Below, one piece after another: positions 6,903 to 56,517 of a stretch of 64,000 nt of DNA. Source of the stretch: Firmicutes bacterium HGW-Firmicutes-16 (GTDB lineage Bacteria > Bacillota > Clostridia > Oscillospirales > Oscillospiraceae); the NCBI GenBank assembly GCA_002841545.1, contig PGZZ01000001.1:62001-126000 (forward strand), in the 5' to 3' direction. The notes beneath the pieces are model-generated. The model searched no databases, was not told where the DNA came from, and saw nothing but the letters and a program-made list of their open reading frames with translations. Position 1 is the stretch's first letter, and each line of letters starts with the position of its first letter. The translations under genes were made by a program, and so were the position numbers.

Positions 6903-7625
6903 TTATTTCGTCATTTTCTCGGAGCTGTTCTCTGTTGGCTCCGCTATATGTACCGTCCCATTCGCCACGCTTAGCTTTCCTGCACAGTATAGCGCAACTG
7001 CCCGCGGAAGTATCACGTTCTCGGCTTCCTCCAAAATGCGTCTCTGCAGCGTCGCCGGGGCATCATCCTCGCGGACTACGACCGCTTTCTGGAGGATTAT
7101 CGGTCCGGAATTCGGTTTTTCCGTTGCGAAATACGCCGTTGCTCCCGAAATTTTTACCCCACATTTGAGTTGTGCTTCCTGTATCGCAAGGCCGGAAAGC
7201 TCCTCGTCCGTGAAGGCCGGCATCAGAGAGGGGCGGGTGTCGATTATCCTGCCGCCGTAATGCTTGAATATGGGCTGGGTCAGCTCGCATTCAAAACCCG
7301 CTAGCACTACAAGCTCAATATCCAGATCGCGCAGCTTGTCCAGAACCGCAAAGCCGAAAACCGTCTGGCTCGGAAAAAGCTCTCTGTCCACGACAAACCC
7401 AGGGATGCCCGCCGCTTCCGCACGTTTGAGCGCATATGCGCCTGGATTCGATGAAATCACCGCCGTTAGCTCACACCGCGGAATTTCCCCAAATGTGCCC
7501 GCATCTATCAGAGACTGAAGATTCAGCCCCCCGCCTGACACTAAAACAGCGGTTTTGACTTTTTTTTCGGCCTTTTTTGATGCTAAATGTTTAAAATCTG
7601 TTGAACTTGTTTGATTCTGCTTCAA
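6903..7625 (-). CDS. PurN-like formyltransferase with replaced catalytic residues
   Basis: 240-residue protein of the phosphoribosylglycinamide formyltransferase fold: KTAVLVSGGGLNLQSLID near the N-terminus, ELVVLAGFECELT (about 104-116), RIIDTRPSLMPAF (about 126-138) and SGPIILQKAVVV. Canonical PurN has N-x-H in the IHPSLLP motif and Asp before the GPII motif. Here these read D129-T-R131 and N172, and the SVHF-type His is Tyr165, so all known catalytic positions differ. The likely TTG start at 7625 overlaps the stop of the upstream fusion gene by four bases (TTGA), with GGGGGAAG before it. It probably has a different substrate or a non-catalytic role, so no gene symbol is given. Confidence 0.75.
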   Translation of the reverse strand: MKQNQTSSTDFKHLASKKAEKKVKTAVLVSGGGLNLQSLIDAGTFGEIPRCELTAVISSNPGAYALKRAEAAGIPGFVVDRELFPSQTVFGFAVLDKLRDLDIELVVLAGFECELTQPIFKHYGGRIIDTRPSLMPAFTDEELSGLAIQEAQLKCGVKISGATAYFATEKPNSGPIILQKAVVVREDDAPATLQRRILEEAENVILPRAVALYCAGKLSVANGTVHIAEPTENSSEKMTK

Positions 7626-39106: not shown

Positions 39107-39182
39107 GCGAAAATATTGTCCCGATGATAATAACAATCTGAATATTGAGTACGTTTCGCATATATTCTACCCATAAAAAAAG

Positions 39183-49127: not shown

Positions 49128-49204
49128 GCGCCTTTAGCTCAGCTGGATAGAGCGTCTGGCTACGGACCAGAAGGTCGGGGATTCGAATTCCTCAAGGCGT
49201 ACCA
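49128..49204 (+). tRNA. tRNA-Arg (anticodon ACG)
   Basis: 77-base cloverleaf: acceptor GCGCCTT/AAGGCGT, D-arm GCTC/GAGC, anticodon stem TCTGG/CCAGA with loop CTACGGA, five-base variable loop, T-arm GGGGA/TCCTC with loop TTCGAAT, discriminator A and encoded CCA. The ACG anticodon is read as ICG and covers CGU/CGC/CGA. The terminal 40 bases are the crossover-type sequence repeated at 55585. Confidence 0.97.
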
Positions 49205-49207
49205 AAA
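49165..49207 (+). repeat. Left copy of the 43-bp direct repeat (tRNA 3' end)
   Basis: It runs from the anticodon stem to three bases past CCA. The right copy at 55585-55627 matches 42 of 43 bases; the one difference is 49189 (T) against 55609 (A). Typical of attachment sites at tRNA 3' ends. Confidence 0.92.
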
Positions 49208-49250
49208 AAGCCCTGAAACCATTGTTAATCCAGTGGGTTCAGGGCTTTTT
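49205..49250 (+). terminator. Terminator behind tRNA-Arg
   Basis: AAAAAGCCCTGAA (from 49205) pairs with TTCAGGGCTTTTT (to 49250), with a long loop; T-run at the end. Confidence 0.88.
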
Positions 49251-49778
49251 ATTGCCGTTTTTTATACATATTTAAATGTATCATCAAGTATGGCACGAGT
49301 CTGTCCTCCAATTCAACGCAGTTTTCGTTAATTTGTTTCCATTATAAAAGGTTAGCTCGTTCCATATAAGTCCACATTTCCATGCAAGCTGAATAATTGT
49401 ACTTATTGGTGAAATGCCCTCCCTGAGCAGTATTTCTTGTAGTGCTTCCTCTTTTGACTAATTATAATAGATATGTTTAGCACGTGTACGCAAAATTCGC
49501 AAATATCTCTTAATTCCGCATAGTTCGATCGCTTTTCCAGAACGCCTTTTCGCCCGCGAGCGCATTGTTACAATTAGATTACACTGGTAAACTTTGCTTG
49601 ATTTCAATATTTTTATATGTTAACATAAGGTCATTGTTAAAGGGTAAATCATCCAGTTTTTTAACAAAGTTTAGCAAGGTACTTCCGTTTGATGGTTGGC
49701 TTTGGATATCCGAACCATCAAGCGTTGTACATAAAAGGCCCCGAACAGGGGTACTACTTAAAGGAGGATTTTCATAGA
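49251..49778. other. AT-rich non-coding leader before the first S-layer gene
   Basis: About 530 bases without a convincing gene. It contains a hairpin (GATGGTT at 49692, AACCATC to 49720) and a GGCCCC-type hairpin near 49737-49752 just before the Shine-Dalgarno. A minus-strand open frame at roughly 49280-49450 has no start codon. Long leaders are common before S-layer genes and may stabilise the mRNA. Confidence 0.5.
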
Positions 49779-52598
49779 ATGAAATCTCTCAACAGAACTC
49801 TCAGCCTCGTACTTGTTCTTGCTATGTGCCTCGGAATGATGGGCATCGCTTCCGCAGCGACAACCTTCACAGATTCCGAAACCATATCATACAAAGAGGC
49901 CGTCGATGTCATGGGTGCCATCGGCGTTATGAACGGTTTAGATACCGGCAAATTCGACCCCACAGGCAACCTCACCCGCGAGCAGGCTGCCAAAATCATC
50001 TGCTATCTGACAATGAGCGCGACAGCAGCTGATAAGCTTACCGCAACCGTAGCACCGTTTACCGATGTAGCTGCTGACCGTTGGTCCGCAGGCAGCATTG
50101 CTTACTGCGTACAGCAGGGCATCATCGCCGGCATGGGTGACGGAACATTCCAGCCCACAGCTAACGTAACCGGTTATCAGTTCGCCAAGATGCTTCTCGT
50201 TGCTCTCGGCTACGATGCATCAATCGAAGTGTTCGTAGGCGCAAGCTGGAGCCTCAATGTTGCAAAGCGCGCCTTCCAGGCTAAGCTTTTTGATGGCAAC
50301 GATGCTTTCGTTGGCACAACTGCTTTGACCCGTGAAGAGGCTGCTCTCTATGCAAAGAACACACTTCTTGCAGAGACCGTTTCTTATGCAACAAAGGGCA
50401 CCAACATCACCACTGATGGCACAACCATCGCCATTGGCGCTTCCGCTCCCGAAAAGGGCGATACCTTCATGGCATCCTATTATTCAGGCTTGAAGGTCAA
50501 CGGCGGAACCACTCGTGCTTACCTCGGAACCAACTCCGATGACTATGGCCGCGCTGCAAACATCTGGGTGCTTAAGGGCACTGAGATCGGCCAGTATGCT
50601 GTAAACTCAACTCTCACTTACACTTCCTCAAAGACAGACACCAACGGTGTCGCTGAAGTCACCAAGGCTCTTAAGGGCTTCACCGTTCAGGCTGGCGCAA
50701 AAATAACTGTCAACGGCAACACCGGCGCTGCAGTTGCTCTAAATGCAACGACATTTGCTGCTCAAATCGCTGCCCTCACCGGCAACGGAACCGAAGTTCA
50801 GATTTCTGTTGATAACGACAATGCAAAGCTGATCACCGGCGTTGCTGTCATCAAGACAGACCTCGCAAAAGTTAGCTCTGTCGGAACAAAGAGCGTTGTT
50901 CTTGCTGACAAGAGCGCTGTTTCCCCCATTCAGGGCACCTACACCATCAAATCCGACGACGACTGCTATGACGCTGTCAAGGGTCTCGCAGTTGACGACT
51001 ATGTACTCGTAACTCCTGTATGGGTATCCGGCACCACCTATAGCGTTGCTAAGGTTGCTATCCCCACTCAGGTAACTGGCTATATCTCCACTTGCTCAAA
51101 AAACCCCAACACTCAACTTGTCAGCGTTACACTTAACAGCAAGGCATATGTTGAGTCCGCTGCAAAGACCTCCGATATTGTTAGCACAATTTCAACCAGC
51201 TCCACTGTCGGCGCAACCCTCTGGATTGATAGCTATGGCTATGCTGTTCATGTAAAGGCTGCTTCTGTTTCTGCAACAGCATATATCTTCGTTCTTGACG
51301 CATATCAGTCCCTTGTAAGCAACCAGATCGTCAACATGGCTAAGGGCATTCTCACCGACGGAACATTGGTTGATGTTGAAGTCGATGGCGTAGCAGCTGT
51401 TGATGGAACACTCTATGGCGCAACCGTCTCCAATGACGTTTACACTCTGGCTACTGCTTCTGCACATACTACGGGCACCGGCCTTGCTGCTGTAACAGCT
51501 AACAAGTATGTTGCCCTCAAGGCTGGCGAAAAGATTGAGTCCTCGGATAAGACTCTTGCTGATGTTCTTCAGAGTTTCGTCATAACTCCAACCACGTATA
51601 CCACCACCTTCACAAACTACTATTCAACATCTGTTAAGTTCATCTATGTGAACACAACATCGAAGACCGCAACTGTCAAGACCGGTGTTCAGAGCGTTTC
51701 CGCTCTTCCCACAAACTCCTATGCAATTATCGAAGCTAAGAGCAGCACTAACACAACTCCTGTTGTATCCGCTGTTATCTTTGTTGACGGCATTGCCGCA
51801 ACAGTTGCTTCCGATGCACTGCTCTTCTTCCCCAAAAAGGATGCTGTTGCTTCTACACTGCTTCTTGATTCTTCAACAAACAAGACAGTTTCTTATCCTG
51901 TCTATGTAGCATATAAGAACGGCGAGCAGGTTCTCGTTCCCACAAAGAGCAACATTGCAGCTAACGCGACTTACTACGCTTATGCAACGAATGATAACGT
52001 AGCCGGCGCATATATCCTCGGTTCCGCTCCCTATTCTGCTACAACCGCTACTACGTCTAACTTCGCAGGTATGGTCACCGGTTCCTTCTCTGATACACTG
52101 ATCAGCCTTTATAATGCTACACCTGCAACGTTAAGCAACATCGATATCTCCTCGGCTAAGATCGTTGACGTCCGTCTGGATGAAGATAAGGATTTATATC
52201 CTGTTACTGAAACAGCAGCCGGCATCTGCGAAGCCGCAAACGACAACTTGACCTTGAGCATCGTATACAATGCTGACACAGGCGCGGCATCCCTCGTCTA
52301 TGTACTTGGACGTGGCGTTGGCTTTGCTCTGACTTACACAAATGACGCAACTCACTATACCATTTACACTGACAAAGCTTGCACACCTGCAAACGCTGTC
52401 ACAACAGGTACTGTGATTGAAGCTGGAACAACTCTGTATGTAAAGAGTAATGATACTGCTGCTACTAAGAGCGAGCTAACTGCTGGAACTCCAGCTGCGC
52501 TTACACTTGAAACTGCTGCTGTTGACGGAACTTCTGCTGCAGTTTACAGCTTCAAGATGACCATTGGTGCTCTGGCATTCACTGCAACTCAGTCCTAA
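49779..52598 (+). CDS. SLH-domain S-layer/surface protein 1
   Basis: 939-residue secreted protein. Signal peptide MKSLNRTLSLVLVLAMCLGM to ASA (about 1-26). Three SLH domains follow (about 30-210): YKEAVDVMGAIGVMNGLDTGKFDPTGNLTREQAAK, then FTDVAADRWSAGSIAYCVQQGIIAGMGDGTF, then a looser third ending ALTREEAALYAKNTLL. The remaining 730 residues are Thr/Ala/Val-rich beta-type sequence with no known enzyme domain. SLH domains bind pyruvylated wall polymer. AAAGGAGG lies 10-12 bases before the ATG. Highly uniform codon use suggests strong expression. Confidence 0.92.
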   Translation: MKSLNRTLSLVLVLAMCLGMMGIASAATTFTDSETISYKEAVDVMGAIGVMNGLDTGKFDPTGNLTREQAAKIICYLTMSATAADKLTATVAPFTDVAADRWSAGSIAYCVQQGIIAGMGDGTFQPTANVTGYQFAKMLLVALGYDASIEVFVGASWSLNVAKRAFQAKLFDGNDAFVGTTALTREEAALYAKNTLLAETVSYATKGTNITTDGTTIAIGASAPEKGDTFMASYYSGLKVNGGTTRAYLGTNSDDYGRAANIWVLKGTEIGQYAVNSTLTYTSSKTDTNGVAEVTKALKGFTVQAGAKITVNGNTGAAVALNATTFAAQIAALTGNGTEVQISVDNDNAKLITGVAVIKTDLAKVSSVGTKSVVLADKSAVSPIQGTYTIKSDDDCYDAVKGLAVDDYVLVTPVWVSGTTYSVAKVAIPTQVTGYISTCSKNPNTQLVSVTLNSKAYVESAAKTSDIVSTISTSSTVGATLWIDSYGYAVHVKAASVSATAYIFVLDAYQSLVSNQIVNMAKGILTDGTLVDVEVDGVAAVDGTLYGATVSNDVYTLATASAHTTGTGLAAVTANKYVALKAGEKIESSDKTLADVLQSFVITPTTYTTTFTNYYSTSVKFIYVNTTSKTATVKTGVQSVSALPTNSYAIIEAKSSTNTTPVVSAVIFVDGIAATVASDALLFFPKKDAVASTLLLDSSTNKTVSYPVYVAYKNGEQVLVPTKSNIAANATYYAYATNDNVAGAYILGSAPYSATTATTSNFAGMVTGSFSDTLISLYNATPATLSNIDISSAKIVDVRLDEDKDLYPVTETAAGICEAANDNLTLSIVYNADTGAASLVYVLGRGVGFALTYTNDATHYTIYTDKACTPANAVTTGTVIEAGTTLYVKSNDTAATKSELTAGTPAALTLETAAVDGTSAAVYSFKMTIGALAFTATQS

Positions 52599-52647
52599 TT
52601 ACCAAAGTATAATGTCTACAACGTCTAACAACGTTTAGATAGCACAG

Positions 52648-52673
52648 CGCCCCAAGGCTTATGCCTTGGGGCG
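52648..52673 (+). terminator. Terminator of S-layer gene 1
   Basis: CGCCCCAAGGC and GCCTTGGGGCG, then TTTTGTTTT. Confidence 0.93.
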
Positions 52674-52684
52674 TTTTGTTTTAT

Positions 52685-52801
52685 TTATTCGGCTATTTGT
52701 TCTTCCGATGATGCATCCGGCGCAAGCCAATCATCCGCGACCTCGCGCTGTTCAACGATTTGTGTTCCGTCCGCGTTGCAGACCAGTACGTTTATTATCA
52801 T
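52685..52801 (-). CDS. 38-residue phage-associated small protein
   Basis: Small gene reading MIINVLVCNADGTQIVEQRE and ending ASSEEQIAE. It starts one base after the stop of the tail-like gene, with a G-run site before the ATG, so it is likely translationally coupled. Tiny genes at this position are common behind tail fibre genes, but no family is recognised. It is too short to be sure of. Confidence 0.55.
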   Translation of the reverse strand: MIINVLVCNADGTQIVEQREVADDWLAPDASSEEQIAE

Positions 52802-52802
52802 G

Positions 52803-53345
52803 TTATTTAACCCCCCAGAAAGTGAATTTGTTTCCTGCCGAAAAGGTGTTGCCGCCGCTTGCGACAAAATTGAGCGTAGAAATGCCGGCAAAGGAAGGGC
52901 CGCCGAAGCCGAAGGAAAAGCACGTCCCTGTCGCAATTACCGCAAGTTGACTGCTTGCACCCATGTGAGGTAAAAATATCAGTCTTGTGCCGCTGCTTAC
53001 ACTGGCAAGTGAGTAGGTTATCCACTGAGTGTTCCCAAAGCCCATGTAATTACTGCCATACTGATTGTTATTTGCGCGAATATTGCACGACTGGACGGTG
53101 ACGGCATCCAAAAATACGTATTGCCAATCGTTAAAGTTAATGTCCGATACGTCAATATCGATTTGAGTAACATTACTCGCCGTGGTTGTAATAGTTTTCA
53201 GCTTTTCGATACAGCTTTTTGCGGAAAGACGTCCAAGCTCTTCATCAATTCTCCTATTGTCCTCGTTAACATCATCCATAAGAAACGGGTCGGAAAGAAC
53301 CCATTGATTAAGCCCCATATTCGGGGTTTTGTTTGTGCTCGCCAT
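52803..53345 (-). CDS. Phage tail fibre-like protein
   Basis: 180-residue protein with the N-terminal motif TPNMGLNQWVLSDPFLMDDVNEDNRRIDEEL (about 7-37), typical of phage and phage-like tail proteins of Clostridia. The rest is beta-rich (SNVTQIDIDVSDINFNDWQYVFLD, then Gly-rich FSFGFGGPSF). It lacks the long shaft of a full fibre and there are no other structural phage genes nearby. AAAGGAGGAGC precedes the ATG. It lies between the two S-layer genes inside the island. Confidence 0.72.
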   Translation of the reverse strand: MASTNKTPNMGLNQWVLSDPFLMDDVNEDNRRIDEELGRLSAKSCIEKLKTITTTASNVTQIDIDVSDINFNDWQYVFLDAVTVQSCNIRANNNQYGSNYMGFGNTQWITYSLASVSSGTRLIFLPHMGASSQLAVIATGTCFSFGFGGPSFAGISTLNFVASGGNTFSAGNKFTFWGVK

Positions 53346-53433
53346 ATTGCTCCTCCTTTAATAATTGGACACAAAGTATCCTTAGCCATACGCCGCATTG
53401 ATGAACAATATGTATGTTTTTATACATACAAAA

Positions 53434-53457
53434 GCGCCGCACTAAAAAGTGCGGCGC
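53434..53457 (-). terminator. Terminator of S-layer gene 2
   Basis: GCGCCGCACT and AGTGCGGCGC, with a T-run on the minus strand. It lies 108 bases behind the annotated stop of the S-layer gene, and only about 14 behind the end of an open tail in another frame. Confidence 0.88.
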
Positions 53458-53564
53458 GAATGAGAAGATTTCAAGCTGTGATAGGGAAATAAGCAATGGC
53501 CTCATTAATTGAAATTACATATGTTCCGGCAGGAGCATAACAAATGTTGATAGAAGCAATGCTC

Positions 53565-55436
53565 TTACATTAGCGGAGTATTACCAGCATAAGCAATAAT
53601 GACTCTTATTCTTCCGCCTTTATTAGCAGGCTTATCATAATAACCGTATATTGTATAGCTGCTCGCCGTATTAGACAATGTATTAGCATTACTCAGAATG
53701 TACCTTTCGTCTTTGTAGATATAGACGCAGGCATTATCACCTATCTGGTACTCAAGGCCGTCACTTATTACATAAGAGGAACTGACGGAGCTCAGCTTCA
53801 GTTTGCTCAGATTCTTCATGCTTACTATGCTGCTTCCGCTGAACTCAATCTGCACAGGGCCTTCAGTTGTTCCGAAAGACAGGGAATTGGCTGAATATTT
53901 ACTGGAGTTGCCGTTGTAGATATAGCTATAATTTATGGTACCTGCGGATTCTCCAAAGCTTGTCAGTATTCCATATTTATACATATCGCCGGTAACATCG
54001 TTCAGTATCATCTGGCAGATATTCCCCTCTGCATTCAACACATAGTACCTCACGTCGCTTGTGGATAGAGTCAGTCCTGCCAGTCTGGCCGGATAGATTT
54101 TAGCGAACGCTCCGTTTTTGGTTGAATCCAAAATCTTTACATCATTGGCAAAACTGAGAGAGCCAAGTGCCGAACCCGAACTATTGACAGTGCCGTTAAC
54201 CGACTTTTCTGCAAGACTGGCTACGGTCATGCTGTTTCCCTCATAGCTGACCTGTACGAGGTCACCTGTGTCTACATATTTATTATCGCATTCAAACTCA
54301 TAAGAGTTACCATCTGTTGACGCTACGGTCACCGTCATTGCACTGTAGCTGCTCCCGGTGCTGTCTGTAAAGGTCTTTTTGCCCGTTGAGCTGACAAATC
54401 CGTAAACTATAGAATTTATCTGGCTGGCAGACAATACACCTACGACATCATTATTTATGCCGAGAAGAAGAGTGACCGAGTCACCGATCTTAAAGGTTCC
54501 CAGCTCTGAAAGAGAATAAGCAGCGGCTGATGTTGATACGGAATAAGTGTTTCCCGCGACGGTTACAGAGGAGGGCGCGGATGCATTTGGGGAAGCGGTG
54601 GTATAAACGCCGGTCACCTTGTTTCTGTAACTCCAGATCGTTTTCGAGCTGACATTATAGTAATATACGTCGTATTGGGATAATGATGAGGAGGTGGATA
54701 ACGATCCATTCATGTAGACTTTTGCTGTGCTTGCGTCGAATGGTAGTGTTGTGTTCCACGAGGAGTCCTCAACAATGAAAGGCCCCTTCATGTTGGCAAG
54801 AACTAGGGATGAATAGTCTAGTTCTCCCGAGCTGTTGACGGTGTAGCCGAGAGTTGTCGCATAATAGCTTCCACTCTTGGTTTTGGTACTCATCAAATTA
54901 TAGAAGAGATACATGCAATCCTGTCTCGTCAGGGTTTTACCCTGCAAAGCAGTTATGCTTGTGTTCAGCCCCAGAGCATTATATTTTGCAATTTGCGCTT
55001 CAGGGAAAGCGCCTGTGAAATCGGAGGTGGAATATCCGAGCATCTTTAGCACTGCGGAGACCGCCTCTTCGAGTTTAACATTGTTGTCTGGCCTAAATGT
55101 TCCGTCCGTATAGCCCGTCATCCAGCCGGCAACAACTGCTGCCTGCACATAGGAAGCAGACCAGTGTGTATATCTTACGTCCTTGAAAGGCGAAGACTTG
55201 GCCGTTGAGCTAATTGTATCCTTATAGGTTGAAGCGGCAATCATCATTTTTGCGAGCTGAGCTCTCGTAACATTGCCCGTAAGGTTCAGGTTGCCGTTTT
55301 CGTCGCCCGTCATGATACCGAGAGCCTGAACAGTCTGTTGCGCTGCCGACAGGTTCGCAGACGAGGCATAAGCAGTCCCCGAGGTCAGACCCAGCACGAG
55401 ACAGGCAGCAAGTATTATAGACGTTATTTTTTTCAT
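53565..55436 (-). CDS. SLH-domain S-layer/surface protein 2
   Basis: 623-residue secreted protein. Signal peptide MKKITSIILAACLVLGLTSG to AYA (about 1-25). Three SLH domains (about 27-200) follow: VQALGIMTGDENGNLNLTGNVTRAQLAKM, then FKDVRYTHWSASYVQAAVVAGWMTGYTDGTFRPDNNV, then one around TSITALQGKTLTRQDCMYLF. A Ser/Thr/Tyr-rich beta region makes up the rest. GGAGGAAAAAT precedes the ATG. After the stop, a second frame stays open for about 30 codons to 53471, hinting at a one-base frameshift near the 3' end. Confidence 0.9.
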   Translation of the reverse strand: MKKITSIILAACLVLGLTSGTAYASSANLSAAQQTVQALGIMTGDENGNLNLTGNVTRAQLAKMMIAASTYKDTISSTAKSSPFKDVRYTHWSASYVQAAVVAGWMTGYTDGTFRPDNNVKLEEAVSAVLKMLGYSTSDFTGAFPEAQIAKYNALGLNTSITALQGKTLTRQDCMYLFYNLMSTKTKSGSYYATTLGYTVNSSGELDYSSLVLANMKGPFIVEDSSWNTTLPFDASTAKVYMNGSLSTSSSLSQYDVYYYNVSSKTIWSYRNKVTGVYTTASPNASAPSSVTVAGNTYSVSTSAAAYSLSELGTFKIGDSVTLLLGINNDVVGVLSASQINSIVYGFVSSTGKKTFTDSTGSSYSAMTVTVASTDGNSYEFECDNKYVDTGDLVQVSYEGNSMTVASLAEKSVNGTVNSSGSALGSLSFANDVKILDSTKNGAFAKIYPARLAGLTLSTSDVRYYVLNAEGNICQMILNDVTGDMYKYGILTSFGESAGTINYSYIYNGNSSKYSANSLSFGTTEGPVQIEFSGSSIVSMKNLSKLKLSSVSSSYVISDGLEYQIGDNACVYIYKDERYILSNANTLSNTASSYTIYGYYDKPANKGGRIRVIIAYAGNTPLM

Positions 55437-55584
55437 ATTTTTCCTCCGACAGGTTGGTTTTAATTTTTTAGCTTTATATTAACATAAATTTGACCAAATA
55501 GATTAATATTTTGAAAACTTTAAAGTTACTTAAAATTACTTTAAGCTATCATCCCACAAAAAATAACTATTACCAATTAGATGC
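55437..55584. other. AT-rich upstream region of S-layer gene 2
   Basis: About 150 AT-rich bases with several near-promoter hexamers but no convincing pair. It separates the S-layer gene from the right repeat. Confidence 0.4.
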
Positions 55585-55627
55585 GACCAGAAGGTCGGGG
55601 ATTCGAATACCTCAAGGCGTACCAAAA
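55585..55627 (+). repeat. Right copy of the 43-bp direct repeat (tRNA-Arg 3' half)
   Basis: It repeats the tRNA-Arg sequence from the anticodon stem to past CCA, but no 5' half precedes it. The single mismatch (55609) breaks the last pair of the T-stem, so it is not part of a working tRNA. Confidence 0.92.
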
Positions 55628-55677
55628 GAAGACGACCTGCTTTTATGCTTATAAAAACAGGTCGTCTTCTTTTGGTA
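55620..55677 (+). terminator. 20-bp perfect stem-loop at the right repeat
   Basis: The arm at 55620-55639 (TACCAAAAGAAGACGACCTG) pairs perfectly with 55658-55677, and the 18-base loop can pair further. It begins on the repeated CCA, so the hairpin and the attachment sequence overlap. This is probably the original terminator of the tRNA gene before insertion. Confidence 0.8.
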
Positions 55678-55746: not shown

Positions 55747-56340
55747 CTATCTAATATATTTTATTTTTTCCGGCTTATAAACTATTGGGTAATTCTTATT
55801 TTCTATAATCAAACCGCTCCTAATGTGGCGAACTTCATCTTTGTCAACCGCATGCCACCGCGTTATTAATTCAGAATATGGTAGATAGGCATAATTACCA
55901 AGCATATTGGGGTCCATAGCATAAATACCATTATCATAGTAACCACAGGCAATAATATAATGTGCATTCTTCCAGTCCAGGGAATACTCAATGTCATCTT
56001 CCAGCCGCCATGCTTGAACAATAAGAATTGGGGCTATATCTTCATCGATATATTTTTTAATGTCCTCAATACTCATGTTTTCTTCAATCCTAGCATTTAG
56101 TCCAAGCAATTCCGAAAAGTATAAAATACTCTTGTAGTCTGTGCCTAAAATCGGCTGAGAATGAAGGATGTCTGCTAAAGCACTTTGCCTATAGTACATG
56201 CCATATCGGGCCAAAATTGATTGTATACACGCTACACCACAAGTATATTCGGTTTCCTGATAGCACAGCGGGACGTGAATAAAGTTTCTTGCGCACTGTA
56301 TAATCGGTGGTGAATCATCAACAATTTTCGAATTCGACAT
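55747..56340 (-). CDS. C39-like peptidase family protein
   Basis: 197-residue papain-fold protein. The catalytic Cys lies in YTCGVACIQSILARYG (about 31-46), the His in NAHYIIACGYYDNGIYAMDP (about 125-144), with Asp close by. This matches the stand-alone peptidase C39-like family. There is no ABC transporter or bacteriocin precursor beside it and no signal peptide. The start at 56340 has AAGGAG ten bases upstream; an in-frame ATG at 56409 lacks a site. Its target is unknown. Confidence 0.8.
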   Translation of the reverse strand: MSNSKIVDDSPPIIQCARNFIHVPLCYQETEYTCGVACIQSILARYGMYYRQSALADILHSQPILGTDYKSILYFSELLGLNARIEENMSIEDIKKYIDEDIAPILIVQAWRLEDDIEYSLDWKNAHYIIACGYYDNGIYAMDPNMLGNYAYLPYSELITRWHAVDKDEVRHIRSGLIIENKNYPIVYKPEKIKYIR

Positions 56341-56517
56341 TACTGGTTCTCCTTGACTAAATTTGCAGAAAAACACTTCATTTATACTTATGCTTGTGTT
56401 TGTAATCATGTGAATTTGTAAATGTAAATACTACTCTCCGATTGCCTGCAAATTATTGAAGTTTCTGTATAATACCGAGTTATCTGATTATCTCCATTCC
56501 AGATCGTATAACGACTT

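Follow-up and report, generated by a model that had tools for sequence, protein, structure and literature searches.

A probable tRNA-Arg island of surface-layer genes in Firmicutes bacterium HGW-Firmicutes-16

The window analyzed here is a 64,000-nucleotide stretch of the genome of Firmicutes bacterium HGW-Firmicutes-16 (contig PGZZ01000001.1, positions 62,001 to 126,000), and all positions without a contig label are those of the window. An intact tRNA-Arg(ACG) gene with an encoded CCA end lies at 49128 to 49204 on the plus strand (ARAGORN; Rfam RF00005, 63.6 bits), and its 3′ half, from the first base after the anticodon to 3 bases past CCA, recurs downstream. The two copies of this direct repeat (49165 to 49207 and 55585 to 55627, both on the plus strand) are identical at 42 of 43 positions and spaced 6,420 bp apart. 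With up to 3 mismatches allowed, 2 matches to the repeat were found in the window versus 0.00 expected from shuffled sequences. In the whole 2.79-Mb genome, the tRNA 3′ half has these two close matches and no third copy, and two more matches at 75 to 80% resemble other tRNAs. The 43-bp repeat of the tRNA 3′ half through CCA, which had been noticed in a sequence-only reading of the window, is therefore confirmed.

The sole difference between the two copies, T to A at 55609, falls at T-stem position 61 and breaks pair 53-61 (−25.8 versus −28.7 kcal/mol). When the right 3′ fragment is joined to the tRNA 5′ half, a predicted tRNA-Arg is restored. At position 53, both copies carry A rather than the G of seven relatives; this shared base, together with the one-base difference between the copies, indicates that the duplication is recent and took place after the split from these species. 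The sequence-only reading had raised the possibility that the right copy is the remnant of a full tandem tRNA, which is ruled out since no tRNA 5′ half lies upstream of it. A terminator hairpin with 20-nt arms (inverted repeat I2, 49205 to 49250, plus strand) directly follows the tRNA, and a second hairpin with 27-nt arms (inverted repeat I1, 55620 to 55677, plus strand) follows the 3′ fragment and, prior to integration, was probably the tRNA terminator. The left terminator was also considered as a pointer to the ancestral end and was rejected, since a similar terminator occupies the same place in phage contigs with attP (L190 and L191).

The two large genes between the repeats encode proteins with SLH domains. 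SLH1 (49779 to 52598, plus strand; start corrected to the ATG at 49779) encodes an S-layer-type protein of 939 aa with SLH domains near the N terminus (Pfam SLH, 6.9e-17), and SLH2 (53565 to 55436, minus strand) encodes an intact SLH-domain surface protein of 623 aa (Pfam SLH, 3.6e-15). The Pfam domains agree with the earlier assignment of both genes to the SLH S-layer type, and N termini resembling signal peptides were recognized by eye on the SLH proteins. The G+C contents of SLH1 (49%) and SLH2 (46%), compared with 49% for the window, give no clear compositional signal. The closest relative of SLH1 is a paralog in the same genome (G000:C20:40461-42965), and the two are about 50% alike as a whole, about 77% alike in the anchor part formed by the first 200 aa, and 25 to 49% alike elsewhere. 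A putative sigma-70-like promoter (TTGATT, 17 bp, TAACAT; 49598 to 49626, plus strand), recognized by its consensus only, precedes SLH1, and the same element is found before the S-layer gene of G002. It is followed by a structured, conserved 5′ leader with a ribosome-binding site (49678 to 49778, plus strand). The leader was aligned with others of its kind (alignment A1, 7 S-layer leaders), and the consensus fold contains 4 doubly changed, compensatory pairs; the leader has no match in Rfam. Other S-layer genes of the genus have leaders of the SLH1 type as well, namely those in L101, L102, L103, L104, and L105.

Two small genes on the minus strand lie between SLH1 and SLH2. One is a tail-fiber-like gene of 180 aa (52803 to 53345), a convergent companion of S-layer genes that was characterized by its homologs and a beta-rich structural model, and the other encodes a 38-aa companion (MIINVLVCNADGTQ...; 52685 to 52801), with a similar small gene standing before the tail-like gene in L217. 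The predicted tail-like protein consists of a helix and a beta-rich body, and the model gives weak matches to phage tail-fiber proteins. Homologs are present in 34 of 200 family genomes, and in G005, G171, G170, and G113 (L213, L214, L215, and L221) the gene follows an S-layer gene in convergent orientation, the same arrangement as in the window. In the window's genome (G000) it occurs only in the island, but G005 carries it at its resident S-layer locus. What had been described as a phage-tail-like pair therefore holds as a pair of minus-strand genes and fails as phage cargo, given that four other genera or species likewise have it convergently downstream of S-layer genes. As a companion of S-layer genes in bacteria, the tail-like gene provides no argument for a prophage. 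Small tail-fiber-like proteins encoded convergently behind S-layer genes constitute a family that occurs in several genera and is possibly surface bound.

A six-frame profile search detected neither an integrase nor an integrase remnant in the island or its flanks, in line with the earlier remark that no integrase is visible there, and there was no PF00589 match in the window region. A 57-aa open stretch (49284 to 49457, minus strand) was considered as an integrase remnant and rejected, since it matches nothing in Pfam and the genus has no relative of it. The sequence-only reading had suggested movement by a helper element and a search for tyrosine recombinases next to the same 43 bp elsewhere in the genome. 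None of the genome's tyrosine recombinases is located at a copy of the 43-bp repeat, and the best G000 relatives of the integrases known for this tRNA share at most 32% identity with them, so this suggestion is not supported so far, and neither is the proposed exchange between strains.

The left flank (YmdB, MPE, and ATPase genes) and the tRNA are syntenic in seven members of the genus, and as far as their contigs reach, no second 3′ fragment and no island genes were found downstream of the tRNA in any of the seven; the contigs are short at the locus in four of them (G001, G003, G005, and G007). Within the reach of these contigs, the relatives do not share the genes and repeats at this place; their presence in all relatives would, according to the sequence-only reading, have refuted its proposal. 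The tRNA is followed by molybdopterin genes in G006 and by FIST and kinase genes in G009. In G010, it is followed by spore-germination genes and then, at 4.4 kb, by a different SLH protein whose likeness to the island is confined to the SLH part (27%). A clean empty site was not found among the seven genus members, including the four with short contigs. The assembly of G005 breaks exactly within the tRNA 3′ half, so strains of G005 may differ at this point. In the genome collections, which contain one genome per species, no strain with an empty site or with other SLH cargo was found. In G007, the tRNA does not adjoin the right flank of the island, and a C39-peptidase-like gene just right of the 3′ fragment (55747 to 56409, 37% G+C) has no homolog among 150 family genomes, which together indicate that the locus has been rearranged. 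The C39-peptidase-like gene is perhaps a second accessory insertion.

The same tRNA is a target of integration in other genomes and phages. Two IMG/VR contigs (L190 and L191) carry an integrase followed by the tRNA 3′ half and a terminator, without the 5′ half, which is an attP-like arrangement. An integrase adjoins the tRNA in G020, with the 3′ fragment on a different contig, and another is located by the tRNA in G053, with the 3′ fragment 2.8 kb off; in G137, the 3′ fragment is next to an integrase-like gene. The nearly closed genome G149 (G149:C1, L228, and L229) has two tandem elements at tRNA-Arg, each with an integrase and a fragment, giving three att copies, and the two integrases have the same N-terminal sequence. 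The tRNA-Arg site is thus a proven hotspot for mobile DNA. A tRNA with a displaced 3′ fragment is the signature of site-specific integration, and since phages and elements use this hotspot, the direct repeat in the window is best read as attL (49165 to 49207) and attR (55585 to 55627). The integration footprint proposed earlier is upheld by the geometry of the repeat, by the phage attP and tandem elements at the hotspot, and by the absence of the second repeat and the cargo in the genus members as far as their contigs reach. The island shares with the G149 tandem, G053, G020, and L190/L191 the target tRNA, the 3′ half as the core, and a terminator after the core; however, all of these have an integrase beside the core, and no SLH genes occur in the parts of them that were read.

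The rules of Islander call for an intact tRNA, a 3′ fragment in the same orientation that reaches the 3′ end, a distance of 2 to 200 kb, and an integrase (PMC4383910). In the window, the intact tRNA is at one end, and the fragment is downstream in the same orientation, reaches the 3′ end, and is outside the full tRNA. The distance is 6,420 bp, and the fragment is located between the SLH2 and C39 genes rather than in a conserved protein domain. The arrangement of tRNA and downstream fragment and the crossover in the anticodon loop correspond to those of Islander-class islands with an anticodon-centered site (PMC4383910), from which the island differs in its surface-layer cargo and in having no integrase, so that the Islander filter would reject it. 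It was accordingly filed as an integrase-less island or remnant and not as an active island. Searches of open-licence papers yielded no tRNA island with a set of S-layer genes as visible cargo.

SLH2 has a resident counterpart in the same genome. Orthologs of SLH2 occupy a conserved ABC-transporter operon locus in G006, G007, and G010, and the resident copy at this locus in the window's genome (G000:C20:247864-249003, L100) is broken: a stop interrupts it near residue 345 and roughly residues 379 to 598 are deleted, although its extreme C terminus is still readable. The island and resident copies share 73% identity. In a tree of 38 SLH2 sequences, the island copy falls inside the genus clade (100/100) and outside all of the resident orthologs (91/77), so it did not arise from the resident copy by recent duplication. 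An old duplication of SLH2 is conceivable, since the tree support for the residents is moderate. The surface genes of the island form a second set, with counterparts at two loci elsewhere in the chromosome.

The best reading of the locus, and one that we consider fairly probable, is a tRNA-Arg island that has lost its integrase and kept its surface genes. An element would have inserted at tRNA-Arg(ACG) by site-specific recombination through a tyrosine recombinase, with the crossover near the anticodon, an event to which the observed geometry points. The tRNA 3′ half supplied by the element would have restored the target gene at the left end, and the original 3′ half would have been pushed 6.4 kb to the right. 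The cargo of such an element would have comprised an S-layer gene complete with promoter and leader, the convergent tail-fiber-like pair, and the SLH protein gene. The integrase, the loss of which is assumed, and any further mobility genes would have disappeared later, leaving a fixed island. The cell would thereby have acquired an additional S-layer gene along with an intact SLH2, and the resident SLH2 at the ancestral locus, the decay of which is observed, may have been functionally replaced. Because the resident SLH2 is broken and the island SLH2 is intact, the island may now provide this component of the cell's outer coat.

Other explanations differ mainly in how the surface genes came to lie between the repeats. 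The nearly perfect att cores, the compactness of the island, and its intact genes would also fit a nonautonomous S-layer cassette that is integrated and excised in trans, with the integrase provided by a resident phage or element targeting the same tRNA, by which strains could swap their coats, and integrases for this site do exist in phages and elements. However, no such integrase is present in the genome, in which the best relatives are at most 32% identical, no similar island was found at the site among the genomes examined, and no variation between strains was observed, so that this explanation is unlikely. A more specific form is distinctly improbable: a dedicated, compact cassette for coat exchange, made up of the S-layer gene, the companion pair, and the SLH gene and devoid of an integrase, would occupy the tRNA-Arg site of resident phages, depend on their integrases for movement in trans, and replace the host layer, perhaps escaping layer-binding phages. 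The island could instead be what is left of a prophage that was reduced to its surface conversion genes, which would have changed the coat against superinfection. Phages with attP at this tRNA exist and the modeled fold of the tail-like protein resembles those of tail-fiber proteins, but the island has no structural, lysis, or replication genes, and the tail-like gene accompanies S-layer genes in bacteria. In addition, a pattern search of IMG/VR revealed no homologs of SLH1, SLH2, or the tail-like gene, and a relative of SLH2 (40 to 42%) was present only in three unannotated "Bacteriophage sp." records. We regard a prophage origin as quite unlikely.

There is likewise only a small chance that the repeats are old att copies of a vanished element, between which surface genes were later brought from chromosomal S-layer loci by homologous recombination or rearrangement. 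The resemblance of the cargo to two chromosomal loci of the same genome speaks for such a history, as does the precedent of S-layer cassette exchange by homologous recombination in Clostridioides difficile (PMC7677006); the 73% identity and tree position of the island SLH2, which is no recent copy of the resident, and the youth of the att copies (1 change in 43) speak against it. An assembly chimera at the 43-bp repeat is conceivable in a draft of 22 contigs with so short a repeat. However, the contig is 261 kb long, and either way of joining requires two copies of the repeat, the alternative being an empty site plus a circle, itself a sign of a mobile element; we consider an artifact of this kind extremely improbable.

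In C. difficile, a block forming the S-layer cassette is replaced by homologous recombination at one fixed locus (PMC7677006). The two systems have in common a block of S-layer and cell wall protein genes that may be exchanged as a whole, whereas the set in the window is located at a tRNA between att repeats and encodes proteins of the SLH type. A cell's encounters with phages, predators, and hosts depend on its surface layer. If the island reading is true, the coat would have been changed by site-specific integration at a tRNA and not by homologous recombination at the resident locus, and in combination with the probable recombinase-driven S-layer switch in relatives described below, it suggests that the lineage may have two ways of altering its coat.

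The switch recombinase is absent from the S-layer loci of the window's genome, and the arrangements found in G005 and G009 look like an S-layer promoter (phase) switch. In G005 (positions 7063 to 13785 of L104, from G005:C35), two divergent S-layer genes surround a tyrosine recombinase and one promoter. The recombinase-site-like sequence ACCATAAATGGTGTTNTTTNTGGT has exactly two copies in the G005 genome, which bracket the recombinase and promoter in inverted orientation (G005:C35:37901-37924, minus strand, and 39135-39158, plus strand), one following the gene A promoter and the other ahead of gene B, itself lacking any promoter-like sequence. In G009, all three copies of a different recombinase-site-like sequence with inverted arms (TGTCGCNAAATAGCAATTTNGCGACA) are located before S-layer genes (C15:9911-9936, C18:1197-1222, and C2:9902-9927; L240 to L242), and one of them adjoins a recombinase that is 40% identical to that of G005.
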